A DNA stretch of 41,705 bases, from assembly GCA_017453325.1 (NCBI GenBank), contig JAFTKK010000044.1, positions 1-41,705 of the forward strand, written 5' to 3'. Shown in pieces: positions 6,504 to 37,445 of this stretch. The position numbers and the translations under genes were made by a program. Each line of letters opens with the position of its first letter. Within the stretch, counting starts at the first letter, position 1. Under the pieces are notes generated by a model, which searched no databases, was not told the DNA's origin, and saw nothing but the letters and a program-made list of their open reading frames with translations. Origin of the DNA: Clostridia bacterium. GTDB taxonomy: Bacteria; Bacillota; Clostridia; Oscillospirales; CAG-272.

Positions 6504-6530
6504 GCGACACAGTATCGCTCTTATTCAAAC

Positions 6531-6624
6531 GAAGCGGGATGCAGGAACATGGCCGCGGAAAATCCTTCGTCCGACCGGCAACTCCCCGTCCCGTCGGCAC
6601 TTAACGCCATGTACCTTACTCTTC
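6531..6624 (-). promoter_or_regulatory. tetrahydrofolate (THF) riboswitch
   Basis: The minus-strand leader of folT contains in order GAAGAGTAAGG, GCGTTAAGTGCCG, GGGACGGGGAGTTGCCG, GGACGAAGG, CCGCGGCC and GCATCCCGCTTC. These are the conserved blocks of the THF-I aptamer, with the closing stem GAAG/CTTC (6621-6624 with 6531-6534). It lies between a consensus promoter and folT. Confidence 0.92.
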
Positions 6625-6634
6625 TGATACACCT

Positions 6635-13774: not shown

Positions 13775-14701
13775 ATGCCAAAATGGATACCGGAACGGCC
13801 GGTCTATAAGCGAGAACGGCGCACGGTGAGCGTCATGGTGCTTGCCGCGTTCCTGTTGCTGCTTGTTTCCCGTCTCACGGCGCATCTGCTCCCCTTCAGC
13901 CACACGCTTTGGTTGGTCGCCCCCGCGCTGGCCGGTGTTGCCTTTTTGCTACCCGTTGGGGGATATCTGCTGTTTCGCGGGCGCGGCTATGTAAAAAATC
14001 TTCGTTTTCAGCTTCCGCGCGCTGCACACATCCCGCTTTTGATCTTTGCTTTCATTTCCTTGTTCTGCGGCTCCTTTTTGCTCTCCATGCTTACGGGCGG
14101 TCTTGATGCGCTTGGCAACAACGTGGCTGCATTCAGTCAAAACACCCCTAAAACGGTGTGGGAATTTTTACTCTCCTTGCTCAGCGTAGGTGTGCTGCCC
14201 GCCATTTTGGAGGCAATTTTCTTCCACGGCATTGTGGCAGCAGAATATGAGCGCCGCGGTGCCTACCGCGCCATCCTGATGAGCACCCTTCTCTTTGCTC
14301 TCGTGCATTTTGACATCACCAACCTCCTTGCCTATCTTTACGCAGGTGCGCTGCTGATGTTGGTTCTCTTCGCCACCAATTCCCTGCTGGCCACCATGCT
14401 TCTGCACGTAGCCTATCAAGTGCTTTCCTTACTGGCGCACACCTATCTGGTCGCACTTTACCGTTTCACGGGCACCGTTCAGCTTTTCCTGTTCATCTTC
14501 CTCGTGCTTCTCTTGCTGTCGCTGATCCTCTTTTGCCGATCGGCCATGCGCATTTACCGCACCAGAGATGAGCACGGCATCAGCAATCCGCGCCGTGACG
14601 TTCCCTACAACGTGCAGTTTTACACCGTGCTGGATGCCGTCAGCGATCCCGCCTTTATTTTCTGTGTGATCGTGTCTGTCGTTGGCTTTATTCTATTTTA
14701 A
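13775..14701 (+). CDS. CPBP-family intramembrane metalloprotease-like protein
   Basis: This 308-residue protein has seven to eight hydrophobic segments. The CPBP core lies at residues about 140-225. VLPAILEAIFFHGIVAAEYERRG replaces the usual EExxxRG motif, keeping one glutamate and losing the paired one. FALVHFDITNLLAYLYAG supplies FxxxHxxN-like residues, and LLHVAYQ the last histidine. CPBP proteins cleave prenylated or peptide substrates in the membrane, some for bacteriocin immunity. The altered first motif leaves activity uncertain. The start is ATG 13775 behind AAAGGAG, and it ends at a bidirectional terminator. Confidence 0.85.
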   Translation: MPKWIPERPVYKRERRTVSVMVLAAFLLLLVSRLTAHLLPFSHTLWLVAPALAGVAFLLPVGGYLLFRGRGYVKNLRFQLPRAAHIPLLIFAFISLFCGSFLLSMLTGGLDALGNNVAAFSQNTPKTVWEFLLSLLSVGVLPAILEAIFFHGIVAAEYERRGAYRAILMSTLLFALVHFDITNLLAYLYAGALLMLVLFATNSLLATMLLHVAYQVLSLLAHTYLVALYRFTGTVQLFLFIFLVLLLLSLILFCRSAMRIYRTRDEHGISNPRRDVPYNVQFYTVLDAVSDPAFIFCVIVSVVGFILF

Positions 14702-14718
14702 TGTGTAACCCTTAGCAC

Positions 14719-14754
14719 AAAAAAGCTCCACCGCAATTGCGGTGGAGCTTTTTT
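14719..14754. terminator. bidirectional terminator between CPBP gene and glycyl radical operon
   Basis: A 24-bp perfect palindrome, GCTCCACCGCAA and its complement (14725-14748), is flanked by AAAAAA and TTTTTT. It ends both converging operons. Confidence 0.92.
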
Positions 14755-14756
14755 GA

Positions 14757-16973
14757 TTACATTCCCTCAAGGAAGCGGGATACAACCAGACGGCGGAAGC
14801 CGGGAGAAAGCGAGGCAAAATATGCCGTAAAGCCCGTCACGCGCACCACAAGGTCGGGGTGACGTTCGGGGTTTTCGTGTGCCTCAAGCAGCTTTTCGCT
14901 GTCAAGGATGTTGATGTTGATGAGTGTGCCGCCCTGCAAAAAATGCGTCTTGATGAGCTGCATCACAATCTCAACGCCGCCCTCCTCGATGGTAATCTTG
15001 GGATCAAATTCAAGCTGCAGCGGCGCGGTATTGCCGTAACCGCACTGCACGGCTGCAATACCGCTGGCCTGTGCCGTCACCGCACCGTCGGTGCGGAAAT
15101 GAGGATTGGGATTAGCGCCGTGAGAGATCGGCTCACCCGCGCGACGGCCGTTTGGCGTAGCACCGACCACAGAGCCGTATTCGATGCTGCGCGCCCAGGA
15201 AAACCATCCGGGCACCAATTGGCGTCCTTTAGGCATTTTCTGCGCCTTGACCACCCCTGAAAAGCTTTCCGTCAAGCGTGCAGCCCACGCATCTGCCGCC
15301 GTGCCGCCACCGCAGTATTTCGGCGTGCTTTGCAGCATAGCGCGAACGCGCTCATCGGCAAAATCGTTTTGCAGCGCCTCATAAAGCGCATCCCAAGTCA
15401 GCTTCTTTTCCTGTTCCACACGCTGCTCCATAGCGGCAAAGGAATCCGCCACTACGGCAAGCCCCGCGCCATCCACACCCACGGTATAAAGCTCGGCACA
15501 TTCGGAGGCATCCAGTCCCTGCTCGAGCGAATGGTGGAACATAAGATTCATGATCAGCTCGGGCGTGACCTCATGCACGTGATCAAGGTGAAGATTGACA
15601 CCCGCCGCCGTGACCTCCACGGCCTTTTCGAGATGCTTTTCGAAAAGGGCGAATAGCGCCTCGGTACTCTTGATGGGAGCGTCACGCATTTCGCCGAGCG
15701 CCACCTCCATGACCTTGGCTATGTTGATCTTCACGGTGTCGTTCATCGGGAATTCCTTACCGGGCACCGCCATCCAGTTACATCCAACAGCAATGCGCTC
15801 ACGCGCGGTCTTTTTGTCAACGCCGTTGCGCATATAGCCCTCGCAAAGGGTCTTGTCACCGCAAAAGCGCGGCCAACCGTTTTTGTGGCGGAACAGGCAC
15901 TCCACAGCATAGCGCAAAAATGCGGGATCGCAATTTTCATGCACGCGTACCGTGAGGTTGCAGGAAATGTTGATCATATCCGCACCGCCAAGGATCAAGT
16001 AGGAAAGGTGGTTCGTTAAATCTCGATCCTGCTCGTCAACACCCGAGATCTGATAGTAATGCGGGTCAATGAGCAAAAGATTGGCAATCAGGAACTTTGC
16101 CGTTTCATCGTCAAGGATGCCCGCCTTTACATCTGCTTCGTAATACGGAAGCAGGACGGTATCCATCTGAAATCCCGCACCGTCTCGCGTGTAAATGCGC
16201 GAGGCGCAGTTGAAAAACGCTACCCATTGGCAGGCCTCGTGGAAGGTTTTAGGCGCGCCAAGGCGGATGTTTTCACACACCGTTTTCATTTTTTCAAGAC
16301 TTTCCTTGATCTCGGGGCGCGTCTCATCGGCCAGCAGCTCACCGATTTTGACAATATGTCGGTCAATAAAATCAACGATCGCCAGCACGCACCGCTCCTC
16401 TGCGTCGTAAAAGGCTTCCTTGCCGCAGTTCACGCCGCGATAGTGGCGGATCTTTTCAAGCAGCCCGCCAAAGCCGAGCGAGAGACCGATGCGGTAATCG
16501 CAGGCAAAATGCGCGTCGCCGTCAATACCCGTGGTAATGTTATAAAGCTTTTGCAGAGGCTTTAGATCATCATACGGGAAGCGCTTTTCATCCCAACGCT
16601 TACTCCATTGCGCGGTCACGCCGCTTGACATAAAGTTGCGCAGCTTTTCGTTTTTCTTGATCCAATCGGGCATATAATGCACATCGCCGCGGTAGTTGAC
16701 AAGCATATCGCGCCAACGGCCGCAAAGCATTTCCATCGGGTCAACGTAAGCGGGATGAGCCGCGAGCACGCGACAGAAATTCTCGCTCATACCGTCAAGG
16801 CCGTAAAAGCTGCCGTTTTCGCTGTTGTACCACGGCTCGGCATAGTACCCCTCGGGCAGCGGCACCGTGCCGAAATCGTCAAGGTCGGTATAGCCGTTTT
16901 GTGCCCGCTTGGCAAGCGTGTGTTCAATTTTGGTACGGCGCATCGTGTCGATGCGGTCACGATAAGTCAGCAT
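14757..16973 (-). CDS. glycyl radical enzyme (pyruvate formate-lyase family), unknown substrate
   Basis: This 738-residue cytosolic, oxygen-sensitive enzyme has the ten-stranded barrel architecture of the family. The catalytic thiyl residue is Cys398 in AVGCNWMAVPGKEF. The glycyl radical is Gly714 in RVTGFTAYFASLSP near the C-terminus. Dehydratases and lyases such as glycerol dehydratase, choline lyase and isethionate lyase have GCVE at the cysteine, and here the Glu position is Trp. Pyruvate formate-lyase has two adjacent cysteines, and here there is one. It therefore fits none of the characterised subgroups I know. The start is ATG 16971-16973 with GGAGG 12 bases upstream. It overlaps its activase by 17 bp and is last in the AraC-controlled operon that starts at 18835. 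Confidence 0.93.
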   Translation of the reverse strand: MLTYRDRIDTMRRTKIEHTLAKRAQNGYTDLDDFGTVPLPEGYYAEPWYNSENGSFYGLDGMSENFCRVLAAHPAYVDPMEMLCGRWRDMLVNYRGDVHYMPDWIKKNEKLRNFMSSGVTAQWSKRWDEKRFPYDDLKPLQKLYNITTGIDGDAHFACDYRIGLSLGFGGLLEKIRHYRGVNCGKEAFYDAEERCVLAIVDFIDRHIVKIGELLADETRPEIKESLEKMKTVCENIRLGAPKTFHEACQWVAFFNCASRIYTRDGAGFQMDTVLLPYYEADVKAGILDDETAKFLIANLLLIDPHYYQISGVDEQDRDLTNHLSYLILGGADMINISCNLTVRVHENCDPAFLRYAVECLFRHKNGWPRFCGDKTLCEGYMRNGVDKKTARERIAVGCNWMAVPGKEFPMNDTVKINIAKVMEVALGEMRDAPIKSTEALFALFEKHLEKAVEVTAAGVNLHLDHVHEVTPELIMNLMFHHSLEQGLDASECAELYTVGVDGAGLAVVADSFAAMEQRVEQEKKLTWDALYEALQNDFADERVRAMLQSTPKYCGGGTAADAWAARLTESFSGVVKAQKMPKGRQLVPGWFSWARSIEYGSVVGATPNGRRAGEPISHGANPNPHFRTDGAVTAQASGIAAVQCGYGNTAPLQLEFDPKITIEEGGVEIVMQLIKTHFLQGGTLININILDSEKLLEAHENPERHPDLVVRVTGFTAYFASLSPGFRRLVVSRFLEGM

Positions 16974-17736
16974 AAACCTGTAATTCCTCCATTTTCGCTT
17001 TGGTGGGTGCCTCAAATACGTGCGCATCCTGCCCCAGCGCCGCAGCCTTCGTCTGTCCCAGCGGATGATAGGGCAGCAGCTCGTATCTTGCCACGTGGTG
17101 TAAGCTTTTTAAAAATGCGGCGGTTTTTGCGATGTTGTCAGCTGTGTCGTTCACACCCGAAACGATCGGTGTGCGCACGATCATCGGCACGCCCATCTCA
17201 TCCGCCTTTTTGATGTTTGCCAGTATCTCGGCGTTGTCCATTCCCGTGTAGCGGCGGTGCAGATCTCCGTCAAATATCTTGATATCCGCCATCAGCAGGT
17301 CAAGCTCGGCAAGAATTTCGGGGTCGTGACGGTACATGGAGCTTTCCATGGCGGTACCGATGCCTGCCGCACGGCAGGCGCGCAATAGCGCCAGGGTAAA
17401 CGCGCGGTGCGCCAGCGGCTCACCCCCCGACACCGTAACGCCCCCCTCGCATCCGTAATAGGGTGCATCGCGTTTGACCTCCTCTAAAACCTCCTCCACC
17501 GTCATTTCCCTGCCGCACACGACGCGCGCGCCGCTGTAGCAGCCTTGCGTGCACTTGCCGCAGGAAATGCATTTTTCGGGATAGAAAAAGGTCTCTTGCG
17601 AGAAAGATACGGTTTCGGGGTTGTGACACCAAAGGCAATGCAAGGGGCAGCCCTTTAAAAAGACTGTGGTGCGAATACCGGGGCCGTCATGTATGGAAAA
17701 GCGCTGGATATCTGTAATCAGAGCCTTCGTCGTCAT
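16957..17736 (-). CDS. glycyl radical enzyme activating enzyme (radical SAM)
   Basis: This 259-residue enzyme uses S-adenosylmethionine to install the glycyl radical on its partner. FSIHDGPGIRTTVFLKGCPL is the family signature, and Cys30, Cys34 and Cys37 of CPLHCLWC hold the 4Fe-4S cluster. One extra ferredoxin-like site, Cys56, Cys59, Cys62 and Cys66 (CISCGKCTQGC), follows. Many activases for non-PFL glycyl radical enzymes have two extra clusters and PFL activase has none, so this is an intermediate type. GGVTVSGGEPL and MADIKIFD are the SAM-binding motifs. The start is ATG 17734-17736, one base after the preceding stop. It directly precedes and overlaps its partner. Confidence 0.95.
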   Translation of the reverse strand: MTTKALITDIQRFSIHDGPGIRTTVFLKGCPLHCLWCHNPETVSFSQETFFYPEKCISCGKCTQGCYSGARVVCGREMTVEEVLEEVKRDAPYYGCEGGVTVSGGEPLAHRAFTLALLRACRAAGIGTAMESSMYRHDPEILAELDLLMADIKIFDGDLHRRYTGMDNAEILANIKKADEMGVPMIVRTPIVSGVNDTADNIAKTAAFLKSLHHVARYELLPYHPLGQTKAAALGQDAHVFEAPTKAKMEELQVYADLS

Positions 17737-17737
17737 A

Positions 17738-18835
17738 TCAAAGGCTCTCGGCTTTCCGCGAAAGATTTGAGCGTCTGGCCGCATCGATCATCGCGACCAC
17801 ATCGGCGTTAAATTCAGCCGTCAGGGTCTCGGCGATCGGCTCGCCGGCGAGGCGAAATGCCGCATAGTGACAGGGCATATTGCGATAGCCCTCATCCTCG
17901 TCAAGCGCCGCGGGCGCCACGTCGTTGCCATAAATATCAGCGGCAGCCACAAAGGCCTCACCGTCCGGCACGCCGTCACACCAAACAGCACCCTCCTCGC
18001 ATACCGCCTCGGGGCCTGTGGGCATACGGCGGCGCGGGGTGGTCCAGGTGCCCTCGCACACGGCAAAGGCATCCTCATAAGTAGCGATTGCGGCAAGATT
18101 ATCCTCTACGTCACCGTAAGGGGTGCCGAGATTGGCAGCATACGCCATCATGGAAAGCGGCTTTTTGCCGAACATCCAACGGGTAAAATAGCACCCGTAG
18201 CAAAGTATGTCAAGGAATGCACCGCCACCGCACTCGGAACGGTACCACCAGGTACGGCTGCGCTCGGCATCGGTCATTGCCTCGGCATTGTCGCTCACGC
18301 CGCGGTGTTTGGCACCCTTACCAAGCGGGCCGGTGTGGCCGTTGAGATAGCGGAGCTTTTTGATCTTTCCGAATTGACCGCTGTCAAGCGTTGCCTTCAT
18401 CTCACGCACGTATTTACGCCAGGCAACAGGCCAGTTGACAAAGATATTCACGCCGTATTTTTCCTTGAGCGCCACGATTTTTGCGGCACTTTCGGGATCA
18501 ACGGCCATCGGCTTCTCGATGATCACGTCAATGCCGCGACGGGCGATCTCCTCTGCGATCTCGGCCTTGCGGTAGTTCTCACAAAGCAAATAGGCTACGT
18601 CGGGCTTCAGCTCATCAAGCATGGCAAGATAGTCGTCATACGGTGTCACCTTATAGGTGTTCACGATATTTTGCAAATTCCAAGCACGGGTATAGCGTTT
18701 ATCTGTCTCCTCGGGAAGGGCCGCAGGCACGTCGGCCACGCCGCGCAGCACGCTATGCGGCTCACCGCTGATGTAAAGTGCGATCTCATTGACGTGCATA
18801 TGCGCACATCCCACAATCACGGAGCGTATCTTCAT
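17738..18835 (-). CDS. Gfo/Idh/MocA oxidoreductase (first gene of the glycyl radical operon)
   Basis: This 365-residue cytosolic NAD(P)-dependent sugar or cyclitol dehydrogenase. The N-terminal Rossmann fold begins KIRSVIVGCAHMHV, an altered glycine motif. The nicotinamide-site IIEKPMAVDPES carries the conserved lysine. WWYRSECGGGAFLDILCYG occupies the place of the usual G..xD...H catalytic motif; the Asp is kept but the His is not. A paralogue at 20125-21213 has the same change. The start is ATG 18833-18835 with GGAGGAT 6 bases upstream. It leads the operon with the activase and glycyl radical enzyme, under a promoter with AraC-type repeats (18907-18964). Confidence 0.92.
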   Translation of the reverse strand: MKIRSVIVGCAHMHVNEIALYISGEPHSVLRGVADVPAALPEETDKRYTRAWNLQNIVNTYKVTPYDDYLAMLDELKPDVAYLLCENYRKAEIAEEIARRGIDVIIEKPMAVDPESAAKIVALKEKYGVNIFVNWPVAWRKYVREMKATLDSGQFGKIKKLRYLNGHTGPLGKGAKHRGVSDNAEAMTDAERSRTWWYRSECGGGAFLDILCYGCYFTRWMFGKKPLSMMAYAANLGTPYGDVEDNLAAIATYEDAFAVCEGTWTTPRRRMPTGPEAVCEEGAVWCDGVPDGEAFVAAADIYGNDVAPAALDEDEGYRNMPCHYAAFRLAGEPIAETLTAEFNADVVAMIDAARRSNLSRKAESL

Positions 18836-18906
18836 TTTCAATCCTCCACAGGCTTTGCAGCTTACATAAATGCTCTGCAAGCATTATTGATAGCATCTCT
18901 ATGCGC

Positions 18907-18964
18907 ATTATAGCATACACACCCACGGTGAGTAAATGCGCAATACCACCAAAAAATAGCACAA
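18907..18964 (-). promoter_or_regulatory. promoter and AraC-type operator of the glycyl radical operon
   Basis: On the minus strand TTTACT (18931-18936) and TATAAT (18907-18912) are 18 bp apart. Two direct repeats, TTGTGCTATTTTTTG (18950-18964) and TTGCGCATTTACTCA (18929-18943), are exactly 21 bp apart, and the downstream copy overlaps the -35. The same arrangement occurs at 22404-22461. Confidence 0.7.
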
Positions 18965-18993
18965 AAGCAACATTACGATGCCTTATTATAACC

Positions 18994-20112
18994 TTACGCC
19001 AGCTCCTCGGCCCGCACCTCGCGCCCAAGCTCTGCCGAGCGATAAAAGCACTCGATTGCCTTGGTCACTTCGATGTTTTGATGCTTTTTAATGAGGAATG
19101 CCTCCTTACCCGCAAGCGTGTTGATGATATTGCGATACATATATCTGTGCTGTTCAAAAGCAACACCCTTATATTCGCCGTTATCAAACCATTTCATGTC
19201 GCACTCGGTCTGATATCTGCCAATGTTTTTGTAAAGGCGCTCTTTATTGACCGAAAGGCCGCCCTTGTCGCCGCAAATGACCATATCAAGATTGGTGGTG
19301 GGAAGATTCAGCGCCCAAGAGAACTTGAAATTAACGCCCATGCCACCCTCAAGGCGCATAAAGCCCGTGGCAAACTCCTCTACGTCAAATTCCTTATAAT
19401 CGTATTTTCTCGGCGTAAAGGCGCCCGAATAAGCACCGCTTTCGGCAATGCTGAGCAGGATATCCTCGCCCTGATTGGCAATTTTCGTATATGCGCTGCC
19501 CGAAACGGCTTCAACCTTTTTATCGCCCACGATCCACAGCAGCGAATCGATCAGATGCACGCCAAGGTCGCAGAAGGGGCCGCCGAAGTTATGCTCCTTC
19601 ATATGGAAAAAGCCCCAGGTGGGAATACCGATGCGGCGGATAAATTCAATATCCGAAAAATACACGTCACCCAGCTCGCCGCTATCCACAAGCTGCTTTG
19701 ACTGCTGCATATAATTTCGCCATCTCATGCACTGGCAGGGGAAGAGCATTTTGCCGCAATCCTTGGCGGTCTGCCACATCTCCTCGGCATCTCTCACGGT
19801 GAGTGCAAGCGGCTTTTCGCAAGCCACGTGCGCACCTGCCCGCAGTGCCTTGATGGTCCACTCCTTGTGATACATATTGGGTGTGCAGACCGCCACGAAG
19901 TCGGGCTTCAGCTCATCGAGCATCTGCTGCGGATCGCGGTAATAATGCGGCACGTCGTGCCTTTTGGCAGTTTCGGCGGCAACCTCCTCACGGATGTCGG
20001 CAACGCCGACCACCTCAACAAGCCCCTCTGCGCGCAAAATATTCAGGGCGGGAAAGTGCGCACTATTTGCGATCATACCTGTGCCAATGACGGCAACTCT
20101 CAGCTTTTTCAT
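18994..20112 (-). CDS. Gfo/Idh/MocA oxidoreductase (third gene of the divergent operon)
   Basis: This 372-residue NAD(P)-dependent dehydrogenase has all standard residues. KLRVAVIGTGMIANSAH is the Rossmann loop, VACEKPLALT holds the catalytic-site lysine, and FGGPFCDLGVHLIDSLLW gives the Asp and His of the G..xD...H motif. It is the most canonical of the four paralogues here and likely a true ring-hydroxyl dehydrogenase. It starts at ATG 20110-20112 behind AAGGAGA, 12 bp after the previous gene. No terminator separates its end from the promoter of the next operon, so readthrough into the glycyl radical genes is possible. Confidence 0.93.
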   Translation of the reverse strand: MKKLRVAVIGTGMIANSAHFPALNILRAEGLVEVVGVADIREEVAAETAKRHDVPHYYRDPQQMLDELKPDFVAVCTPNMYHKEWTIKALRAGAHVACEKPLALTVRDAEEMWQTAKDCGKMLFPCQCMRWRNYMQQSKQLVDSGELGDVYFSDIEFIRRIGIPTWGFFHMKEHNFGGPFCDLGVHLIDSLLWIVGDKKVEAVSGSAYTKIANQGEDILLSIAESGAYSGAFTPRKYDYKEFDVEEFATGFMRLEGGMGVNFKFSWALNLPTTNLDMVICGDKGGLSVNKERLYKNIGRYQTECDMKWFDNGEYKGVAFEQHRYMYRNIINTLAGKEAFLIKKHQNIEVTKAIECFYRSAELGREVRAEELA

Positions 20113-20124
20113 ACCGTTATCTCC

Positions 20125-21213
20125 TTAATTCATACGTTTTGTTTCCACGGTCACGCCCGTGCGTGCCGAGATAGCGCCCGCCTCCAGCGCGGCAACCACC
20201 GCAAGGTTGAGGCGCGGGGAGAGCATCTCGTCAGGCTCCGTCTCGCCGCGCAGCACCTGTGCAAGATGTGCACCGAGCAAGATGTCCTGTCGGTCAAGAC
20301 CTGCATCCACCACCTCGGTGGGCGGTACGGGCTTGTGGCTTCTGCCCTTATAATATTTCACGGTCGAGGTATGGCGGTCGCACACGATCACACCGTCTGT
20401 GCCGTATAGCACGGGACCCGTGGGAATCTCGCCCGGATTGTAGGTGGACCAGGAGCCCTCCAGCAATCCCACACCATCGCCAAAATCAAGCATCATGGCG
20501 CTGTAATCCTCCACGTCCGCAAATGTCACGCCGAAGTTTTTGGCAATCCCCGACACGCGCTCGGCTTGTCTTTCAAACATCCAAGTCGAGAGCACGGTGC
20601 CATAGCAAGCATAGTCAAGGATGGAGCCGCCGCCATTCTCGCTCTTGTACCACCAGCTGCGAGCCAAGACCTCATCGGGCGGCAGCTCACCGTCGGGGGA
20701 GTAGGAAAAAGGTCCCCACGTGGCGGGACTGCGGTAGGTCACACGCAACAGCTTGCCGATCTTGCCCTCGTTCAGCATTTTTTTCGCCATGCGGAAGGCG
20801 GGGAACCACGCGATCGGCCAATTGGTGAGCATATGGATGCCGTGCTCCTTGGCCACACGGCACATATGCAGCGCGGCCTCATAGGTCATGGCCATGGGCT
20901 TTTCGGCGAGCACGTGAATACCCGAGGCCAGCAACGTGCAGCAGACCTCCTCGCGCGAGCCGTTATCCGAATTCACAATAGCAAGATCGGGCTTTTCGGC
21001 GATGAGATCATGCCAGTCGGCAAATTCGCGCACGCCGCGCTTGTCGCGCATACCTGCGCGCCGAGCCTCGTAATGGTCGGGCTCGGGTGAGGGCATGGGC
21101 ACCTCGGCAAAGCCGATGATCTCAAAATCATCGGGATAATTGGCAACGGTTCGGTAAAGCGCCATCACGTGCGGATGCGCGAGACCGAAAAACGCAACTC
21201 TTATTTTTTTCAT
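20125..21213 (-). CDS. Gfo/Idh/MocA oxidoreductase (second gene of the divergent operon)
   Basis: This 362-residue protein. KKIRVAFFGLAHPHVMA is the nucleotide-binding start, with an altered glycine motif like the paralogue at 17738. LAEKPMAMT has the site lysine. SWWYKSENGGGSILDYACYG matches the unusual motif of the 17738 gene, with Asp present and the catalytic His missing. The two form a subfamily and may work on the same compound at different positions or in opposite directions. The start ATG 21211-21213 is preferred over the adjoining GTG, with AGGA 9 bases upstream. The ribosome site overlaps the upstream stop codon. Confidence 0.92.
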   Translation of the reverse strand: MKKIRVAFFGLAHPHVMALYRTVANYPDDFEIIGFAEVPMPSPEPDHYEARRAGMRDKRGVREFADWHDLIAEKPDLAIVNSDNGSREEVCCTLLASGIHVLAEKPMAMTYEAALHMCRVAKEHGIHMLTNWPIAWFPAFRMAKKMLNEGKIGKLLRVTYRSPATWGPFSYSPDGELPPDEVLARSWWYKSENGGGSILDYACYGTVLSTWMFERQAERVSGIAKNFGVTFADVEDYSAMMLDFGDGVGLLEGSWSTYNPGEIPTGPVLYGTDGVIVCDRHTSTVKYYKGRSHKPVPPTEVVDAGLDRQDILLGAHLAQVLRGETEPDEMLSPRLNLAVVAALEAGAISARTGVTVETKRMN

Positions 21214-21225
21214 CACGCACTTCCT

Positions 21226-22320
21226 TTAAAACGTGGTCTCAATGGCAACGGTGGCGCCACTCTCGATCGCCTCGGGTATCTTGCACATGATCTCCAGCAC
21301 GTGGCGCGCGTGCTCGGGTGTCAGCACAGGCTCGGTATCGCACTCAATCGCGCGAACAAGGTCGGTAAGGCAACAGCATTGGCTCTTGAGCTTTTCTTGC
21401 CTAACCTCCCACGCTGCAGGGTTGATCCAGCCGCGGATACCGCGCTCACGGCAATCCATATAGACCTCGGGGGCAGGATTTTCCATATAGGGCTTGCTAA
21501 AGGTGATGGTGCCCTCGGTACCGTAGATCTCCAGCTGCGGAGTTTTGGATGCCTTTTGCGAAAAGCCCGTATCGATAAAGCCAATCTTACCGTTTTCAAA
21601 AATAAGCGAAATCAAGTACACGTCGGGAATTTGATCGGATTTGATTTGCAGGCCGTTGTATTTGCCCGAGCGCACGGTGCGCGCGGGGTCGGTGATGGCA
21701 GCGGTGCAGCTGATGCTCCTCACGGGGCCGAACATCGTAGTCACGATCTGCAGGCCATGCACGCCCATATCGACCAGCGCACCCGCACCGTCCTCGTAAA
21801 ACCAACTGGGGTCAGCATCACGGTACTGAAAATATTCGGGGCCGCCGTGGGCAAGATTACACTTTAAATAGGTCGGCTCACCGATCACGCCGTCCCGCAT
21901 CATCTGCTTTGCAAAATTAAGGTCATATCGCATCGGGTGGATCGGCACACAAACGAACTTCACGCCCATGCGGCGGGCAAGCTCTATCTGCTCGGTCAAG
22001 GCCTCGACCGTGGGGGCAGCGGGCTTTTGCGAAATGAGGTGCTTCCCTGCCGCAAGGACGGCCATATTGATCTCGTGATGCGCCTGAATGGAGGCAACGT
22101 CGATGGCGATATCAAAATCGCACTTTTCTATCATCTCGTCAACGGAGGTGTACCACTCCGCCACGCCGTATTTTTCACAGGCCGCCCGTGCACGCTCGGG
22201 CACGATATCGCAGACCGCCACGCAAACGGCATTTGCCTCCCTCGCAATATTGGGCAGGTACTGCGCGTGTGCAAACATGCCGCAGCCGATTACTGCGACC
22301 TTCCATAGCTTTTTTTCCAT
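21226..22320 (-). CDS. Gfo/Idh/MocA oxidoreductase (first gene of the divergent operon)
   Basis: This 364-residue NAD(P)-dependent dehydrogenase. KLWKVAVIGCGMFAHAQYLP is a standard Rossmann loop. The usual EKP is ISQKPAAPT here: the lysine is kept but Glu is replaced by Gln. GAGALVDMGVHGLQIVTTMF supplies the Asp and His. It starts at ATG 22318-22320 behind GAGGAGG. It is divergent from the araC gene, with the shared control region 22348-22461 between them, and leads the three-gene dehydrogenase operon. Confidence 0.93.
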   Translation of the reverse strand: MEKKLWKVAVIGCGMFAHAQYLPNIAREANAVCVAVCDIVPERARAACEKYGVAEWYTSVDEMIEKCDFDIAIDVASIQAHHEINMAVLAAGKHLISQKPAAPTVEALTEQIELARRMGVKFVCVPIHPMRYDLNFAKQMMRDGVIGEPTYLKCNLAHGGPEYFQYRDADPSWFYEDGAGALVDMGVHGLQIVTTMFGPVRSISCTAAITDPARTVRSGKYNGLQIKSDQIPDVYLISLIFENGKIGFIDTGFSQKASKTPQLEIYGTEGTITFSKPYMENPAPEVYMDCRERGIRGWINPAAWEVRQEKLKSQCCCLTDLVRAIECDTEPVLTPEHARHVLEIMCKIPEAIESGATVAIETTF

Positions 22321-22347
22321 AAGGATACCTCCTCAAAAATTTCATTC

Positions 22348-22376
22348 TTGACAAACAAATGGGGGTTTTGTATAAT
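22348..22376 (+). promoter_or_regulatory. araC promoter
   Basis: TTGACA (22348-22353), 17-bp spacer, TATAAT (22371-22376) on the plus strand, perfect consensus. The start site would be near 22383, upstream of the AraC-type repeats at 22426-22461. Bound regulator could therefore block its own transcript. Confidence 0.85.
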
Positions 22377-22403
22377 GAAATCGATACATCTCCCCTCAAG
22401 CGC

Positions 22404-22461
22404 ATTATAACACATACGCCAGAGACAAGTAAATGCACAATACAACCCAAGTATAGCACAA
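22404..22461 (-). promoter_or_regulatory. promoter and AraC-type operator of the three-dehydrogenase operon
   Basis: On the minus strand TTTACT (22428-22433) and TATAAT (22404-22409) are 18 bp apart. Two direct repeats, TTGTGCTATACTTG (22448-22461) and TTGTGCATTTACTTG (22426-22440), are 21 bp apart and the downstream copy covers the -35. This matches the site at 18907-18964 in sequence, spacing and position. Confidence 0.75.
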
Positions 22462-22481
22462 AATTAACATAGAGGTGTTTT

Positions 22482-23423
22482 ATGTTCTACCGTATTTCTG
22501 CGCAGCCGCTGCCCGCGGTCAGCGAAGTGGATATGCTGGTACGCAAAACCGTATGGCGCTGCGCGGATAAACGAAATATTTTGGTATACGTGCGGGAGGG
22601 CTCCTGCACCTTTACCATTCATTCAAAGGATTATATTCTGAAAAAGGGGCAGTTTTTGCTGATCCCCGCAGAGCAGCCTTATGTGCGCCGCCCCTTGGAC
22701 GATACCGAATGCAGCTTCACCTACCTGCACTTTACCACGGCTGAACCGATCACGCTCGTCACACGTGAGGAGTTGGAGGCATATATCACGAAACGCGAGG
22801 AACGGCTGGAGCGCAGCATCGCCTCCCACGACGGCGAGGACACCGCTGCCGAACGCTATATTTTTTTAACACAGTTCACAGACGCTTGCGATATGCAAGA
22901 GACTGTGTTGCCCCTCCTTGACGGGGTGGTGGCAGCCTTTCACCAAAACGAATATTACAGCCGCCTTTCCCTGTCGCTGGGGCTCCTTTCCCTGCTGGCC
23001 ACGCTCGGCAAAGGCGCGATGGCCGAGTTCCGCCGTCACAATCTGCCCGCCGGCGGCACCTATCCGCCGCAGCTGCAAAGAGCACTTTTTTATATCAATA
23101 AAAATTACAAGCAAAAGATCACCATTGAGGCGCTTTGCGCGCATTGTGACGTTTCCCCTCAGCATCTCATTCGTTTGTTTCACAAGCATCTTGGCACCAC
23201 GCCCATCCAATTTATCAACCGCAACAAGATCTTTCACGCCATCGAGATGCTCCGCGCGACCGACCTCTCGGTCAAGGAGATCTCTTACGAGCTGGGCTTT
23301 GATAATCCCAATTATTTCAGCAGGCTCTTCAAAAAGGAAGAAAAAATGTCCCCCAGCGACACCAGATACCGCATTCGGAATTACCACCACCTCCACATAC
23401 CGAGCCCCGCAGAAAAAGAATGA
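22482..23423 (+). CDS. AraC-family regulator with N-terminal cupin sensor
   Basis: This 313-residue cytosolic transcription factor. Residues about 1-100 form a cupin-type ligand pocket (ILVYVREGSCTFTIHSKDYI, KKGQFLLIPAEQPY). Residues about 205-300 hold two helix-turn-helix motifs: ITIEALCAHCDVSPQHLIRLFHK and LSVKEISYELGFDNPNYFSRLFKK, the latter being the AraC signature. The start is ATG 22482 with AGAGG 6 bases upstream. It leads the plus-strand operon araC-manA-ROK and faces the dehydrogenase operon. The matched repeats at both minus-strand promoters are its likely binding sites. The ligand is unknown, probably the pathway substrate or an intermediate. Confidence 0.92.
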   Translation: MFYRISAQPLPAVSEVDMLVRKTVWRCADKRNILVYVREGSCTFTIHSKDYILKKGQFLLIPAEQPYVRRPLDDTECSFTYLHFTTAEPITLVTREELEAYITKREERLERSIASHDGEDTAAERYIFLTQFTDACDMQETVLPLLDGVVAAFHQNEYYSRLSLSLGLLSLLATLGKGAMAEFRRHNLPAGGTYPPQLQRALFYINKNYKQKITIEALCAHCDVSPQHLIRLFHKHLGTTPIQFINRNKIFHAIEMLRATDLSVKEISYELGFDNPNYFSRLFKKEEKMSPSDTRYRIRNYHHLHIPSPAEKE

Positions 23424-23440
23424 CCGAAAGGATGCCCAAC

Positions 23441-24391
23441 ATGAACAAGCAACTCCCCATCAAGCTATCCCCCGCCTTCAAGGACTACCTTTGGGGCGGT
23501 GACAGGTTGAAAACCGATTTTGGTAAGCAAAGCGATCTCACGCCCTTAGCGGAGAGCTGGGAGCTTTCCGCCCACCGCGACGGTGAGAGCACCGTGGCCA
23601 CGGGACCGCTTGCGGGCCTTGCGCTCACCTCCTACCTCAAGCAGGTCGGGACAAGTGCGCTCGGCACCGCCGCCGCACGCTTTGACTACTTCCCCATTCT
23701 CATCAAGCTGATCGACGCCAAGGGCGATCTTTCGGTGCAGGTACACCCCGACGATGCCTATGCACTTGCCAACGAGGGCGAATACGGCAAAACCGAGATG
23801 TGGTACATCCTTGATTGCGAGCCGGGCGCCTGCCTTTATTACGGCTTTGCCCGTGACGTGAGCCGCGCGGAATACGAAAATGCTATCAAGGAAAACAGAC
23901 TGACCGAGATCTTAAACCGTGTACCCGTGAAGCGGGGAGACGTGTTCTTCATTCCTGCGGGCACGGTGCACGCCATCGGCGCGGGCATTGTGATCTGTGA
24001 AATTCAGCAAAATTCCAATACCACATACCGCGTATATGACTACGGCAGACGCGACAAAAACGGCAACACGCGTCCGTTGCACGTGGAAAAAGCGCTGGCG
24101 GTTTCCGCGCTCACGGCAGCTCCCGCGCACACCGACACGCCTAACGGCCCCGACGTGCTGCTTGCCGACTGTCCCTACTTTACCGTGCGTCGCCTGCGCG
24201 TGACCGACACCCTTACGCTCACCTGCACCGACGACACCTTTTATTCTCTGATTGTAACAGATGGCCACGGCACGCTGACCATGCACGGCGAGACGCTTGA
24301 CCTCAGCAAGGGTGACAGCATTTTTATTCCCGCACAAAACGGCAGCGCAACGCTGGACGGCACCTGCGAGCTTATTTTCACTCACATTTAA
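23441..24391 (+). CDS. manA: class I mannose-6-phosphate isomerase
   Basis: This 316-residue zinc enzyme interconverts mannose 6-phosphate and fructose 6-phosphate. DYLWGGDRLK is at the start. Zinc ligands lie in LSVQVHPDDAYA, KTEMWYIL, and IPAGTVHAIGAG. EIQQNSNTTYRVYDYGR is the active-site signature. The length fits the short bacterial form. An ATG at 23420 overlaps the araC stop but has no ribosome site; ATG 23441 has AAAGGA 9 bases upstream and is preferred. Placed between araC and a sugar kinase, it probably routes the pathway's phosphorylated hexose to fructose 6-phosphate, and the real substrate may differ from mannose 6-phosphate. Confidence 0.93.
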   Translation: MNKQLPIKLSPAFKDYLWGGDRLKTDFGKQSDLTPLAESWELSAHRDGESTVATGPLAGLALTSYLKQVGTSALGTAAARFDYFPILIKLIDAKGDLSVQVHPDDAYALANEGEYGKTEMWYILDCEPGACLYYGFARDVSRAEYENAIKENRLTEILNRVPVKRGDVFFIPAGTVHAIGAGIVICEIQQNSNTTYRVYDYGRRDKNGNTRPLHVEKALAVSALTAAPAHTDTPNGPDVLLADCPYFTVRRLRVTDTLTLTCTDDTFYSLIVTDGHGTLTMHGETLDLSKGDSIFIPAQNGSATLDGTCELIFTHI

Positions 24392-24405
24392 AAAGGAGAA
24401 CGGAT

Positions 24406-25353
24406 ATGTACATTGGAATTGACCTTGGCGGCACCAACATTGCAGTTGGTCTGGTAGACAAAAACGGCAAAATTCTCGCCACTGACAGCGTCCCGACGCA
24501 CAAGGAGCGCGCCTACATCGAAATCGTGGCAGACATGGCGGCTCTGGCCAAAAAAGTGACGCTTGCGGGCGGCTGCGCACTTGAAGACATCAAGGCTGTG
24601 GGCATCGGCTGTCCCGGCACCATCGACACCGCAAACGGTGTGGTGGTCTACGCCAACAACCTGAAAATGGACCGCGCGCCCGTGGCAGCCGAGTTCCAAA
24701 AACATTGGAACATCCCCGTGTACCTTGAAAACGACGCCAATGCCGCCGCCTTTGGCGAATATCGGATGACGGCCAAGGACACCGACAGCTTTGTGTTTAT
24801 GACGCTCGGCACGGGCGTGGGCGGCGGCATCGTGCTGAACGGCCGCCTCTGGCACGGCTTCAACGGTGCGGGCGCTGAGATCGGCCACACCTCTATCGTC
24901 ATGGACGGCGAGCCCTGCACCTGCGGCATGCGCGGCTGCCTTGAAAGCTATGCCTCCGTAACGGCGCTGATCAAGCAGACGAAAGAAGCTATGGAAGCCC
25001 ACCCCGACTCCGCCATGCACGAATGGGTCGCCAAAAAGGGCAAGATCTCCGGCCGAACCGCCTTTGAGTGCGCAAAGGCAGGCGACGCGGCGGCTACCGC
25101 CGTGCGCGACCGCTATATCCGCTACGTGGCAGAGGGTGTCAATAACCTCATCAATATTCTGCAGCCTGCGGTCTTTGCCATCGGTGGCGGCATCAGCAAA
25201 GAGGGCGACACGCTCCTTGTACCCATCAGGGAGTTTGTCGCAAAATACAACTACAACAAGCACATGCCCAAAACCGATATCCGCATCGCCACGCTCTTCA
25301 ATGATGCGGGCATTATCGGCGCCGCCTTTGCTGCGATGGCGGAGCAGCCCTAA
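24406..25353 (+). CDS. ROK-family sugar kinase (glucokinase-like)
   Basis: This 315-residue cytosolic kinase phosphorylates a hexose with ATP. GIDLGGTNIAVGLVD is the phosphate-binding loop. LENDANAAAFGEY carries the catalytic Asp. GTGVGGGIVLNG and GAGAEIGHTSI surround the sugar and zinc site. The ROK zinc motif is CTCGMRGCLE, and IGGGISKEGD is the C-terminal ATP motif. It is closest in pattern to glucokinase-type ROK enzymes. It lies 14 bp after manA with AAGGAG 8 bases before ATG 24406. Its partner genes suggest it phosphorylates the free hexose released by the AraC-controlled pathway. Confidence 0.93.
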   Translation: MYIGIDLGGTNIAVGLVDKNGKILATDSVPTHKERAYIEIVADMAALAKKVTLAGGCALEDIKAVGIGCPGTIDTANGVVVYANNLKMDRAPVAAEFQKHWNIPVYLENDANAAAFGEYRMTAKDTDSFVFMTLGTGVGGGIVLNGRLWHGFNGAGAEIGHTSIVMDGEPCTCGMRGCLESYASVTALIKQTKEAMEAHPDSAMHEWVAKKGKISGRTAFECAKAGDAAATAVRDRYIRYVAEGVNNLINILQPAVFAIGGGISKEGDTLLVPIREFVAKYNYNKHMPKTDIRIATLFNDAGIIGAAFAAMAEQP

Positions 25354-29782: not shown

Positions 29783-31231
29783 TTATTGATCCTCTCCAAA
29801 ATCCTTCACGTATGCCTCAAGCAGCTTTTCGGGCCAATCGGAAACAGGCTCCAGCTTACCCGTAAAGAAGCGCAGCGTTTTCGGCTCATGAACAAAGCGC
29901 AAACCGCCGACAAGGTGTCTGTGGTCGTAGAGCCATTTGACGCGGTCGATCACGTACTCGGTCTGCGAAAGCGTAAAGACGCGGCGCGGGAACGCAAGGC
30001 GCACCATTTCCACCGAGGCAATATGCTCGGTGCCATCGGGATTGCGCTCCTCGGAAAGCGTGCCGCGCTCCATGCCGCGAATACCGCCGCAAAGGTAAAG
30101 CGCCGCCACCAGCGAGCCTGCCGGGTATTGCTCCGAGGGGATGTGAGATACGACCTGACGCGCATCAATATGTGCGCCGAGACCGCCGCCGGGCGTGATC
30201 ATCGGCACGCCAAGAGCATCAAGCTCCTTCACGCAATGCCCGATAAACTGCGGCCCCTGGGAGATAATATCAAGATCCATCGTCTCCTCAAAGCCGATGA
30301 TCATGGCTTCCATCTCCTTAACGGACATACCGCCGTAGGTCAAAAAGCCCTCGAACATCGTGATGTAGTCCTCCATCTCATGGAAAAGCACTTCGTCGCG
30401 CACCAGAATACCGCCGCCGCGACCAAAGCCGAATTTTCTGCCCGAGAAGTAGATCACATCGAAAAGATCGGCGATCATACGCGTGATCTCGCGGATCGAC
30501 TTATCCTTCATGCCCTCCTCGCGCACCTTGATAAAGTAAAGGTTATCCTGCAAAAGCGAGGCATCCAGCACAGTCAAAATACCGTGCTTTTTAGCAAGCT
30601 CGGTGGCGGCCTTCATGTTTTCATAAGAGATGGGCTGACCGCCGATCAGGTTGGTTCCTGCCTCGATACGCATGTAGGCCACGTTATCGGCGCCCTCCTT
30701 TTCGATGCAGGCGGCTACCTTATCAAGATCGATATTACCCTTGAAGGGCAGATTGCTCTTGGGAATAAGCCCCTCATCCTTCACCAGCTCCTCCACGTGG
30801 CCGCCAATGCGCGTGACGTGTGCCTTTGAGGTGGTAAAATGGTAGTTCATGATCACGCAATTGCCGGGCTTCACAAAATGCTGTGCAATAATATGCTCGC
30901 ATGCGCGACCCTGATGGGTGGGAAGCAAATGCTGAATGCCGAAGAGCTCCTCAAGCTTATCGCGCATACGGTAGAAGGTCTCGCTGCCCGCGTACGCATC
31001 ATCGGCACGCAGCATGGCAGACTGCATATTGTCACTCATGGCGTTCACGCCCGAGTCGGTCAGCATATCCATAAAGATATCACCGTTATGAAGCATAAAG
31101 GTGTTAAAGCCCGCCTCCTTCATTTTGGCAAGGCGCTCTGCTGCGGGCAGCAGATTCAGCTTTTGTACGATCTTGACCTTGTGCATTTCCATGGGCACGG
31201 GTTGGCGATTGTAAAATTTGATTTCAGGCAT
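29783..31231 (-). CDS. tryptophanase/tyrosine phenol-lyase family PLP enzyme
   Basis: This 482-residue cytosolic beta-eliminating lyase. Members split tryptophan, tyrosine or similar amino acids to pyruvate, ammonia and the side-chain product. NTFMLHNGDIFMDMLTDSGV, LPTHQGRACEHIIA (phosphate-site loop), YMRIEAGTNLIGGQPIS and VLDASLLQDN are family blocks. The PLP lysine is Lys266 in FSGRKFGFGRGGGIL. Known tryptophanase and tyrosine phenol-lyase have KKD followed by an M/L-V-(N/P) turn there, so this is a divergent branch and its substrate is open. The start is ATG 31229-31231 with AAGGAG 8 bases upstream. It is divergent from a LysR regulator that probably controls it. Confidence 0.87.
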   Translation of the reverse strand: MPEIKFYNRQPVPMEMHKVKIVQKLNLLPAAERLAKMKEAGFNTFMLHNGDIFMDMLTDSGVNAMSDNMQSAMLRADDAYAGSETFYRMRDKLEELFGIQHLLPTHQGRACEHIIAQHFVKPGNCVIMNYHFTTSKAHVTRIGGHVEELVKDEGLIPKSNLPFKGNIDLDKVAACIEKEGADNVAYMRIEAGTNLIGGQPISYENMKAATELAKKHGILTVLDASLLQDNLYFIKVREEGMKDKSIREITRMIADLFDVIYFSGRKFGFGRGGGILVRDEVLFHEMEDYITMFEGFLTYGGMSVKEMEAMIIGFEETMDLDIISQGPQFIGHCVKELDALGVPMITPGGGLGAHIDARQVVSHIPSEQYPAGSLVAALYLCGGIRGMERGTLSEERNPDGTEHIASVEMVRLAFPRRVFTLSQTEYVIDRVKWLYDHRHLVGGLRFVHEPKTLRFFTGKLEPVSDWPEKLLEAYVKDFGEDQ

Positions 31232-31268
31232 CTTTTTTTCTCCTTGGGGTTGCTTTTCGTTGTAATGT

Positions 31269-31297
31269 ATTATATAATAGAACTCACGATTAGTCAA
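31269..31297 (-). promoter_or_regulatory. promoter of the tryptophanase-like gene
   Basis: TTGACT (31292-31297), 17-bp spacer, TATAAT (31269-31274) on the minus strand. Confidence 0.8.
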
Positions 31298-31318
31298 ACG
31301 AGAGTTTTCAATGTTTGC

Positions 31319-31335
31319 CATCGAAATTTTCGATG
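31319..31335. promoter_or_regulatory. inverted repeat before lysR
   Basis: CATCGAAA and its exact complement flank one T, 12 bp before the LysR start codon and 22 bp upstream of the divergent -35 box. It is a candidate LysR binding site, though it lacks the strict T-N11-A form. Confidence 0.4.
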
Positions 31336-35362: not shown

Positions 35363-37321
35363 TTATGATTCGTGTACGGTCGGCATCCAGACCTCGTATT
35401 CGGAGGCCTCATCCCAGGTCTTACCCACGCTCGAAAAATCGGCTACGGTGAAGTGCGTACCGTTGGTCTGCGGCACCGAAAGTGCCACCATCGAAGCAAA
35501 GGGCGTGGCATCCCGCGGCAGCAGCTCGGCATCCACGTAAAGTGCCTCGCTTGCCGGTGAAACAGGTGCGAAATCGGCGGTGATGCGCGTCTCGCGTGCC
35601 ATCACCAACGGCCCGCGACGCAAAGCCACGTGATACTTTTCCTCGGGCTCCTCATGCACCACCGTGCGCTGGCCGCCCTTGGAGCTTGCCATGAAGATCT
35701 CATCCTCGCCCCAAGGCTGCGGGTGCAGCACCTCAGTGCGCATATCAAGCGTCAGCACCAGCTCATCCCCGTTCTCAAAAACCTCCGTCACGGTGGTATA
35801 GCCTGCGGTGACGGCTTGCTCTGTGCCATTATAGGTAAGCGTTGTATCGACGCTCCATGCGGGCACGCGCAGCGAGAGCGCAAAGCGCTCGGCACGGGGC
35901 AGCTCAAAGGAAATCTTCACAGCCCCCTCGCGCGGATAGCCGCCCGACACGCGCAGCGTAAGGCTCTGGCCGTCGGGGGTCATGGTCTGATATACGGCAT
36001 CCCCGTAAAGGTTCAGCGCAAAGCCGCCCTGTCGGCGCAGCATACCGATCTGCGCACAAAGGCCAACGCCCAATGCACCGATGCAAGCGCAGCAGCCGTA
36101 ATACGTGCCGTCCTGCATATGCTGCGTGCCGCCCACGGTACGGCCACGCACGCTGCGCAGCAGATCAGCGTAGCTGTCAAAGGCAAGATAGGTGGGCACA
36201 AACTCGCCGTATTTCAAAAAGCCGCGTCCCACACGGTCCACAAACACGCGGCGATCGGTATTGAGTGCGCCGCGATACGAGTTATAAAGAGATTGCTCAA
36301 AGCAATCGGCATATTTGGAATTGCCCGTAAGCAAAAGCATACGCAGGCAGAACTTCATCCACGTGACCGTCACGCAGGTCTCCTGCTTGATGCCCTTGAA
36401 ATAATCGGAGACCTGGCGGGCGCCCGAATGGTCAAAAAGCTCGTGCGTAAGACCCGCACAGCCGATTACGGTGATCTCGCCGTCAAATACGCGCTCGGCA
36501 AAGTTCTCCACCGCCACGCGATATTCCTCCTTGCCCGTAGCCAGATAATATTCGAGCACGCCCTCAAAAAAGGAGATCATTTCATAGGCCTTGGTAACCG
36601 GATACTGATGGGGAGCCAGCTTGTTTTCGGTAGCAAGCTGCAGGATATTGCCCCAGGCGCTGCCGCCCTCTCCCACGATATGGGTGGCAAAGTCAAAATA
36701 TTTTTTGGCACCCGTAATGCCGTAAAGCTTCATCACGGGCTCAAGGATCGAGGAGGCGTTGAGACCGCCCCAGCAGGCAGAGGCCTTGATGATGGGAAGC
36801 TTTTCGGGCTCGGCACCGATGCGTGCGATCATATAATCGATATGCGCACGCACAAACTTTAAGATCTCGGCACGCAGCGCGCGGTCGTGGCAAATGTCAC
36901 GGAAATAGAGCATGCCGAGCGCCACATATTTGCGGCCCCACACATCCCAATCAAAAAACTCCTTTTCGCGCCCGTAGGTGCTGACGCGGCCATCCTCCTC
37001 GGCCATGGTCAGCATTTCCTTCACGGTTTCAAGAAGCACCTCATAAAGCGCCTCGTCGTGCGTGCAGGTATACACAAACACGCCGCCGCGCATCATTTTG
37101 CCCCAGTACTCGCAACGCCAGCCGCCCTTGGCATCGGCCTTAATGCGATATTGCTCCACAAAGCGGCGCCAAAGGGTTTTGTCGGTCAGCTGATCGGCGG
37201 TAACGAAATCAAGCATGTCCTTCACGTCACCCGCAAAGGTTACGTGCTTGGCCGTATCGATGCCAAGACCGCCAAGGCGCGCGGCATCATCCTTTTCATG
37301 TAAAAAGAACAAAGGCTTCAT
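35363..37321 (-). CDS. GH127 family beta-L-arabinofuranosidase
   Basis: This 652-residue glycoside hydrolase of the former DUF1680 group has no signal peptide, so it should act on imported oligosaccharides. It has an (alpha/alpha)6 barrel followed by beta-sandwich domains. The catalytic zinc site characteristic of GH127 can be seen: Glu314 and Cys316 in KQETCVTVTWMKF, and Cys410-Cys411 in YYGCCACIGALG. The cysteine thiolate is the nucleophile in the characterised Bifidobacterium enzyme. The spacing between the two motifs is about 15 residues longer than there. The start is ATG 37319-37321 with AAAGGAG 7 bases upstream. It has its own promoter. It probably serves, with the esterases, in hemicellulose or arabinan use. 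Confidence 0.92.
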   Translation of the reverse strand: MKPLFFLHEKDDAARLGGLGIDTAKHVTFAGDVKDMLDFVTADQLTDKTLWRRFVEQYRIKADAKGGWRCEYWGKMMRGGVFVYTCTHDEALYEVLLETVKEMLTMAEEDGRVSTYGREKEFFDWDVWGRKYVALGMLYFRDICHDRALRAEILKFVRAHIDYMIARIGAEPEKLPIIKASACWGGLNASSILEPVMKLYGITGAKKYFDFATHIVGEGGSAWGNILQLATENKLAPHQYPVTKAYEMISFFEGVLEYYLATGKEEYRVAVENFAERVFDGEITVIGCAGLTHELFDHSGARQVSDYFKGIKQETCVTVTWMKFCLRMLLLTGNSKYADCFEQSLYNSYRGALNTDRRVFVDRVGRGFLKYGEFVPTYLAFDSYADLLRSVRGRTVGGTQHMQDGTYYGCCACIGALGVGLCAQIGMLRRQGGFALNLYGDAVYQTMTPDGQSLTLRVSGGYPREGAVKISFELPRAERFALSLRVPAWSVDTTLTYNGTEQAVTAGYTTVTEVFENGDELVLTLDMRTEVLHPQPWGEDEIFMASSKGGQRTVVHEEPEEKYHVALRRGPLVMARETRITADFAPVSPASEALYVDAELLPRDATPFASMVALSVPQTNGTHFTVADFSSVGKTWDEASEYEVWMPTVHES

Positions 37322-37354
37322 CAAAAATCTCCTTTGCAAAATAATATCATCCTC

Positions 37355-37384
37355 ATTATATCCCCGCCCCGACGCGCTTGTCAA
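37355..37384 (-). promoter_or_regulatory. GH127 promoter
   Basis: TTGACA (37379-37384), 18-bp spacer, TATAAT (37355-37360) on the minus strand. Confidence 0.8.
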
Positions 37385-37445
37385 CACCTTTTTTTGCCCC
37401 AAAAACTGCGCGATGTTATGCCGCCTGCAAAAATCAAAAAAGCCC

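Follow-up and report, generated by a model that had tools for sequence, protein, structure and literature searches.

The window analysed here, a 41,705-nt stretch of DNA from a Clostridia bacterium (CAG-272; contig JAFTKK010000044.1, assembly GCA_017453325.1), carries at positions 14757..25353 a cluster of nine genes containing a glycyl radical enzyme (GRE), its activase and four dehydrogenases of the Gfo/Idh/MocA family, designated DH1 to DH4. The cluster points to an undescribed anaerobic breakdown of a sugar or glycoside in gut bacteria. Pfam and NCBIfam searches bore out the gene positions and families given in an earlier annotation of this DNA (the original prediction). The nine open reading frames (ORFs) at 14757-25353 encode proteins with PFL-like plus Gly_radical, radical SAM (the activase), GFO_IDH_MocA (four proteins), AraC, PMI type I and ROK domains. 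The features are as follows.

14757..16973, minus strand: GRE of the Cys-X-Trp clade (Pfam); ORF open to 17027, start assigned by homologues
GRE residues in ORF numbering, from motif counts: C416, thiyl site; W418, replacing the eliminase Glu; G732, radical glycine
16957..17784, minus strand: radical SAM activase for the GRE, whose start it overlaps (Pfam Radical_SAM; TIGR02494)
17738..18880, minus strand: DH1, Gfo/Idh/MocA dehydrogenase, paralogue of DH3 (Pfam)
18886..18973, no strand: putative operator block, second copy, between DH2 and DH1 (local alignment, pattern search)
18994..20112, minus strand: DH2, Gfo/Idh/MocA dehydrogenase, predicted DgpA (glycoside 3-dehydrogenase) type (Pfam; profile)
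20125..21216, minus strand: DH3, Gfo/Idh/MocA dehydrogenase, paralogue of DH1 (Pfam)
21226..22320, minus strand: DH4, Gfo/Idh/MocA dehydrogenase, best PDB match DgpA1 (Pfam)
22380..22470, no strand: putative operator block, first copy, between the divergent DH4 and AraC genes (local alignment, pattern search)
22482..23423, plus strand: AraC-family regulator (Pfam); divergent AraC genes also occur in relatives
23420..24391, plus strand: class I mannose-6-phosphate isomerase (ManA), start overlapping the AraC stop (TIGR00218)
24406..25353, plus strand: ROK-family sugar kinase, glucokinase-like (Pfam, NCBIfam)
14718..14755, no strand: perfect 19-bp palindrome just past the GRE stop, a possible bidirectional terminator

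The activase scored 283 bits with TIGR02494 (cut-off 174) and ManA 169 bits with TIGR00218 (cut-off 116), while the ROK kinase, at 254.5 bits, was slightly under the glucokinase model cut-off of 260.35. Translation of the GRE probably starts at 16973 instead of 17027, since in most aligned homologues the first residue corresponds to Met19. The genome searched for background (1.97 Mb, 83% complete) contained 26 matches to PF01408, or approximately one per 76 kb; with four of them lying here within 4.6 kb, the gene set is therefore not a product of chance.

The block at 22380-22470, approximately 90 bp long, recurs at 18886-18973 with a local alignment score of 81; the best of 1000 dinucleotide shuffles scored 44. 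Half-site patterns derived from it, allowing up to 3 mismatches, had exactly two matches each in the 1.97 Mb genome, both within the cluster, and the shared operators of the original prediction were thus upheld. The repeated block and the cluster-specific half-sites support a local regulon comprising AraC-ManA-ROK, DH4-DH3-DH2 and DH1-activase-GRE. The operator block, together with a gap of 113 bases separating DH2 from DH1, suggests that the minus-strand genes form two operons. AraC is the probable regulator acting on both operator copies, to which it would bind, and in this genome the shared putative operator ties ManA and ROK to the cluster.

The GRE matched PFL-like with 318 bits and Gly_radical with 55 bits, both above the cut-offs. 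Merging of duplicates left 64 distinct GREs in the homologue set: clade I with 48 members at least 42% identical to the GRE of the window, clade II with 15, and a truncated sequence (L024, 39%) that was left out of both. The catalytic C416 was present in 64/64 members and the radical G732 in all 62 rows reaching that position. An activase gene was found within 6 kb of the GRE in 41/48 clade I and 14/15 clade II loci. The GRE of the window is predicted to form a glycyl radical.

What sets these enzymes apart is the residue two positions after the catalytic Cys. Trp418 was found in all 64 members, so that the Cys-X-Glu motif of the eliminases is replaced by Cys-X-Trp, whereas 13 of 14 reference GREs (6 HypD, 3 CutC, YbiW, PflD and 3 unassigned) had Glu at this position. 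Similarly, His636 was present in 63/63 members, and Glu or Asp occupied the same place in 14/14 reference sequences. H173, D177, E425, D430 and H480 were invariant in 64/64 members and D519 in 63/63. According to passages of PMC7077986 and PMC8473560, the conventional role of Cys-X-Glu in eliminases is documented, its Glu is conserved among them, and a Glu-to-Gln change (E436Q in HypD, E470Q in IslA) inactivates the enzyme.

Clustering of the GRE with a characterised subgroup had been named beforehand as an outcome that would speak against a new pathway. No clustering with HypD, CutC, YbiW or PflD was detected, and the GRE was under the cut-off of every NCBIfam equivalog model (best 265 vs 678 bits; HypD model 188 vs 1100, CutC model 151 vs 1050). 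In a quick tree of 22 of the 64 members (the window GRE, L087, was left out) and 18 reference rows, the 22 members formed a single clade (support 100, stem 1.76); YbiW and PflD did not join this Cys-X-Trp clade but fell with the remaining GREs. Assignment to a known eliminase subgroup was rejected on the cut-offs and the tree. When a profile of 16 members was compared with solved structures, PflD (the top chain), HypD, PFL2 and glycerol dehydratase were similarly distant (268-286 bits).

Pyruvate formate-lyase (PFL) carries an adjacent Cys pair. In the members studied here residue 417 was Asn, His or Ser in 64/64 cases, and residue 415 was Gly in the rows tabulated; because there is thus no Cys pair around C416, PFL-type chemistry was rejected. 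Loops lacking Cys-X-Glu were also seen outside the clade. The same genome encodes a second GRE (L141, contig C13, 8364-10592) that does not group with the clade despite its GCNW Cys loop; around it lie genes for a 6-hairpin glycosidase, AraC, an aldo/keto reductase and a radical SAM protein. A GCVV Cys loop was found in an unassigned GRE (L139, G365 contig C52) that is likewise not part of the clade.

The second outcome named beforehand, absence of the dehydrogenases near the GRE in related genomes, was not observed either. Association was scored within a distance limit of 6 kb in loci whose flanks total 5 kb or more (45/48 of clade I, 14/15 of clade II). A Gfo/Idh/MocA gene was found in 36/45 clade I loci, compared to 0/20 control loci (10 HypD, 3 CutC and 7 unassigned GREs, from other families of the phylum), which hold 21 other GREs; 4 of the 20 control stretches were shortened by contig ends. 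The clade I figure divides into 24/28 loci at 60% or higher GRE identity and 12/17 below, and it scores as Gfo/Idh-negative both L008 and L113, whose contigs stop a short way upstream of the GRE. Assuming the density of this genome (26 in 1.97 Mb) everywhere, the binomial probability of such a count is 2e-22. The order DH4-DH3-DH2-DH1 was kept in 13 of the 38 loci bearing any Gfo/Idh gene, and in 32/38 there was a best match to the DH2 class, 24 at 37% identity or more and the remainder at 22-31%. A Chloroflexota contig (L019) whose GRE is 43-45% identical had eight Gfo/Idh genes within 6 kb together with a TIM barrel, and these dehydrogenases grouped with the DH1/DH3, DH2 and DH4 classes in a quick, preliminary tree.

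The GRE was found in 28 of the 295 family genomes (this one among them), in 15 of the 394 order genomes and in 3 of the 398 genomes sampled from the phylum, the thresholds differing between these searches. In the same genus, the GRE was absent from all 8 other genomes searched. This patchy distribution would fit horizontal transfer.

Against solved chains, the DH2-class profile gave full-length similarity to DgpA (254 bits) and DgpA1 (248 bits), followed by the next chain at 126; DH2 was 71-92% identical to the class members from five loci in its alignment. As described in parts of PMC11239390, enzymes of the DgpA type use bound NAD to oxidise the C3 position of C- and O-glycosides. DH2 is thus closest to the DgpA-type glycoside 3-dehydrogenases, and activity at C3 is predicted. 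The best PDB match of DH4 was also DgpA1, weaker at 82 bits. DH1, a paralogue of DH3 (32% identity), matched glucose-fructose oxidoreductase weakly (40 bits), and sugar 3-ketoreductases were among the weak PDB matches obtained with DH1, DH2 and DH4. The CGDB domain (PF19906) of the DgpC-type subunit was found in 0/25 GRE-carrying genomes; the control genomes gave no match either.

Other genes travel with the GRE in relatives. The statement that the cluster contains no transporter or glycosidase holds for this cluster, but not for all relatives, some of which have importer genes or glycosidases. Immediately upstream of DH4, and on its strand, L022 and L117 (the latter from a 99% complete genome) carry genes for a solute-binding protein and two permeases, forming a sugar-type ABC importer, and GH2, GH38, GH130 and 6-hairpin glycosidases were present in several relatives' stretches. 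An isomerase-type TIM barrel was detected within 6 kb in 14/48 clade I loci (by profile or BLAST); Pfam confirmed those of L012 (a copy farther off), L014, L019, L060 and L117, the one in L060 being fused to a Gfo/Idh domain beside the GRE. In a PDB comparison, one small TIM barrel from a relative resembled hydroxypyruvate-isomerase-like and epimerase chains, its weak matches including a YcjR-type 3-keto-glucoside 4-epimerase. Some relatives have an FAD-dependent oxidoreductase near the GRE. The importer, the TIM barrels and the glycosidases suggest that the pathway deals with sugars or glycosides rather than with amines or aromatics.

In contrast to their co-regulation here, ManA and ROK are not conserved with the GRE in relatives, and the original prediction that they are general pathway steps found no support; both were rejected as core steps. 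The ManA profile found six proteins across all stretches searched, including that of the window. Four copies, at most 46% identical, lie beside GREs (L056, L060, L061 and L120), and the L015 copy belongs with a different GRE. L015 also encodes a second PFL-like protein (14148-16484) with no Gly_radical Pfam match, adjoining an FGGY kinase, a ManA-like protein and a ROK protein with a helix-turn-helix match. A conserved protein of approximately 260-270 amino acids directly follows the GRE in L056, L059, L060, L061 and L120, with a ManA-like gene next in 4 of the 5; this protein, from loci of the 43-47% identity group, was set aside, since neither of the two copies scanned matched Pfam and the PDB gave nothing convincing.

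Several other features were observed. In clade II, L063, L064 and L068 have a ThuA-type protein and a GH2 glycosidase nearby (by Pfam in L063, by clustering in the others). Elsewhere in the window are a tetrahydrofolate (THF) riboswitch at 6530-6625 on the minus strand (81.5 bits), a GH127-type beta-L-arabinofuranosidase at 35363-37402 and a PF01212 beta-eliminating lyase of 512 amino acids at 29783-31321.

We propose, with a probability of about 0.42, that the cluster is a catabolic module in which the ketone is made first: DH2 would oxidise the ring, radical cleavage would occur beside the ketone, and the remaining enzymes would reduce or rearrange the products. The imported compound would be sugar-like, most likely a glycoside or an oligosaccharide. 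DH2, perhaps together with DH4, would use its bound NAD to turn a ring hydroxyl, probably that at C3, into a ketone. Once activated by the activase, the GRE would then take a hydrogen next to the ketone by means of the Cys416 thiyl radical and break the neighbouring C-O or C-C bond. Reduction or rearrangement by DH1, DH3 and, in many relatives, the isomerase-type TIM barrel may release a normal sugar, which in this genome could be fed to glycolysis by the co-regulated ROK kinase and ManA. The usual Glu of Cys-X-Glu deprotonates a hydroxyl of the substrate, and a substrate bearing a ketone might not need it; if the substrate is already a ketone, the replacement of Glu by Trp418 would be explained. 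The predicted easing of the radical step by a ketone fits the loss of the Cys-X-Glu base.

Several points weigh against this scheme. Ordinary beta-elimination suffices to cleave a 3-keto-O-glycoside, which leaves the need for a radical unexplained, and the invariant E425, D430 and D519 could replace the missing Glu. Clade II keeps Trp418 with a Gfo/Idh neighbour in only 1/14 loci, so that Trp itself would not require a ketone made next door. Moreover, 9/45 clade I loci have no nearby Gfo/Idh gene, and at least two of these (L015, L074) have full flanks.

Some of the same observations feed the strongest rival, in which the radical step comes first and the dehydrogenases are reductive. The GRE would carry out a 1,2-elimination on an unoxidised sugar or polyol, His/Asp replacing the Glu, and the resulting deoxy-ketose would be reduced by the Gfo/Idh enzymes, its ketone serving as an electron sink as in the logic of the YbiW/PflD route. 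The invariant or nearly invariant H173, D177, E425, D430, H480, D519 and H636 would suit such chemistry; some Gfo/Idh enzymes are sugar 3-ketoreductases (represented here by weak matches), and clade II suggests that the GRE can work without dehydrogenases nearby. GREs acting on anhydro-sugar phosphates are known (passages of PMC12441222). However, where tested the Glu was essential, both E470Q of IslA and E436Q of HypD being inactive (parts of PMC8473560 and PMC7077986), and the kin of DH2 is a 3-oxidising enzyme, although a reversible one. We consider this order of events a serious contender, if on balance an unlikely one. The case for catabolism of a cyclitol or methyl-cyclitol, with inositol-type dehydrogenases yielding an inosose that the GRE would open or deoxygenate, is poorer. 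Isomerase-superfamily TIM barrels do occur in the 14 clade I loci mentioned, and both DH2 and DH4 had inositol 2-dehydrogenase (TIGR04380) among their top-scoring NCBIfam models, but with a cut-off of 355 the scores were 89 bits for DH2, 77 for DH4 and 28 for DH1 and DH3. The nearest solved relatives of DH2 are the DgpA enzymes, the single small TIM barrel compared resembled hydroxypyruvate isomerases and epimerases, and the glycosidases of some relatives do not favour a cyclitol. The cyclitol part of the original prediction thus found no specific support, and we regard it as improbable.

Radical epimerisation or isomerisation, in which the GRE would take and return a ring hydrogen, leave the skeleton intact, and the dehydrogenases would finish a sugar interconversion, is harder still to credit. 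The replacement of both acidic positions of the reference enzymes (Glu by Trp418, Glu/Asp by His636) would suit a non-elimination reaction, and the weak match to a YcjR-type 4-epimerase is in line with it, but Gfo/Idh oxidation and TIM-barrel epimerases already provide a radical-free route, and we know of no GRE that epimerises. That the GRE has a known function (HypD, CutC, YbiW, PflD, PFL or glycerol dehydratase) amid unusual neighbours agrees with the certain fold family; given the scores far below the model cut-offs, the separate clade with support 100 in the quick tree, and the absence of both Cys-X-Glu and a PFL-type Cys pair, such a function is very improbable.

If the ketone-first scheme is taken further, Cys-X-Trp might mark a new GRE reaction class, a C-O or C-C lyase acting on a 3-keto sugar or glycoside supplied by the paired Gfo/Idh/MocA dehydrogenase, which would give strict anaerobes an oxidise-cleave-reduce route; we consider this possible but doubtful. 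By its kind this is a GRE pathway, and as far as we can tell the variant motif and the dehydrogenase partners are undescribed. In the parts of the open-licence literature covered, where the Gfo/Idh family name is poorly searchable, no pathway joining a GRE and Gfo/Idh enzymes was found. Among the reactions that GREs catalyse are some of the hardest in anaerobic metabolism, and eliminases have so far been recognised by the single motif Cys-X-Glu. Here a large clade has lost this motif in all 64 sequences examined, and for the most part its main branch is associated with sugar dehydrogenases. The operon, with importer, dehydrogenases, isomerase, activase and GRE, is a concrete and testable candidate for a new radical sugar reaction in herbivore guts and other anoxic habitats; if the scheme is true, it would open to strict anaerobes sugars that glycosidases cannot open.

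Compared to known systems, the GRE shares with the eliminases (glycerol dehydratase, HypD, CutC, isethionate lyase) the PFL-like barrel, the thiyl Cys, the C-terminal glycyl radical loop and a dedicated radical SAM activase. Where the eliminases have Cys-X-Glu and the 14 reference rows have Glu or Asp in the place of residue 636, the clade described here has Cys-X-Trp and His636; it is separate in the tree and has Gfo/Idh neighbours. The radical glycolysis of 1,5-anhydrohexitol phosphates by YbiW/PflD in Escherichia coli likewise uses a GRE in sugar breakdown, and PflD is the top solved chain for the profile of the clade; however, E. coli YbiW and PflD keep Cys-X-Glu and adjoin fsaA or phosphotransferase system (PTS) genes, whereas the present cluster has dehydrogenases and lacks a PTS. 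In aerobes and facultative anaerobes, oxidation-based clusters for glycosides (YcjQRS, 3-keto-glycoside pathways) contain dehydrogenases, a TIM barrel and a sugar ABC importer; to our knowledge none of them contains a GRE. The GRE loci share with YcjQRS-like clusters several dehydrogenases, the isomerase-type TIM barrel and the sugar ABC importer. In the DgpABC system of C-glycoside degradation in gut bacteria, DgpA is the protein nearest to DH2, and in the operon described here a GRE is present instead.

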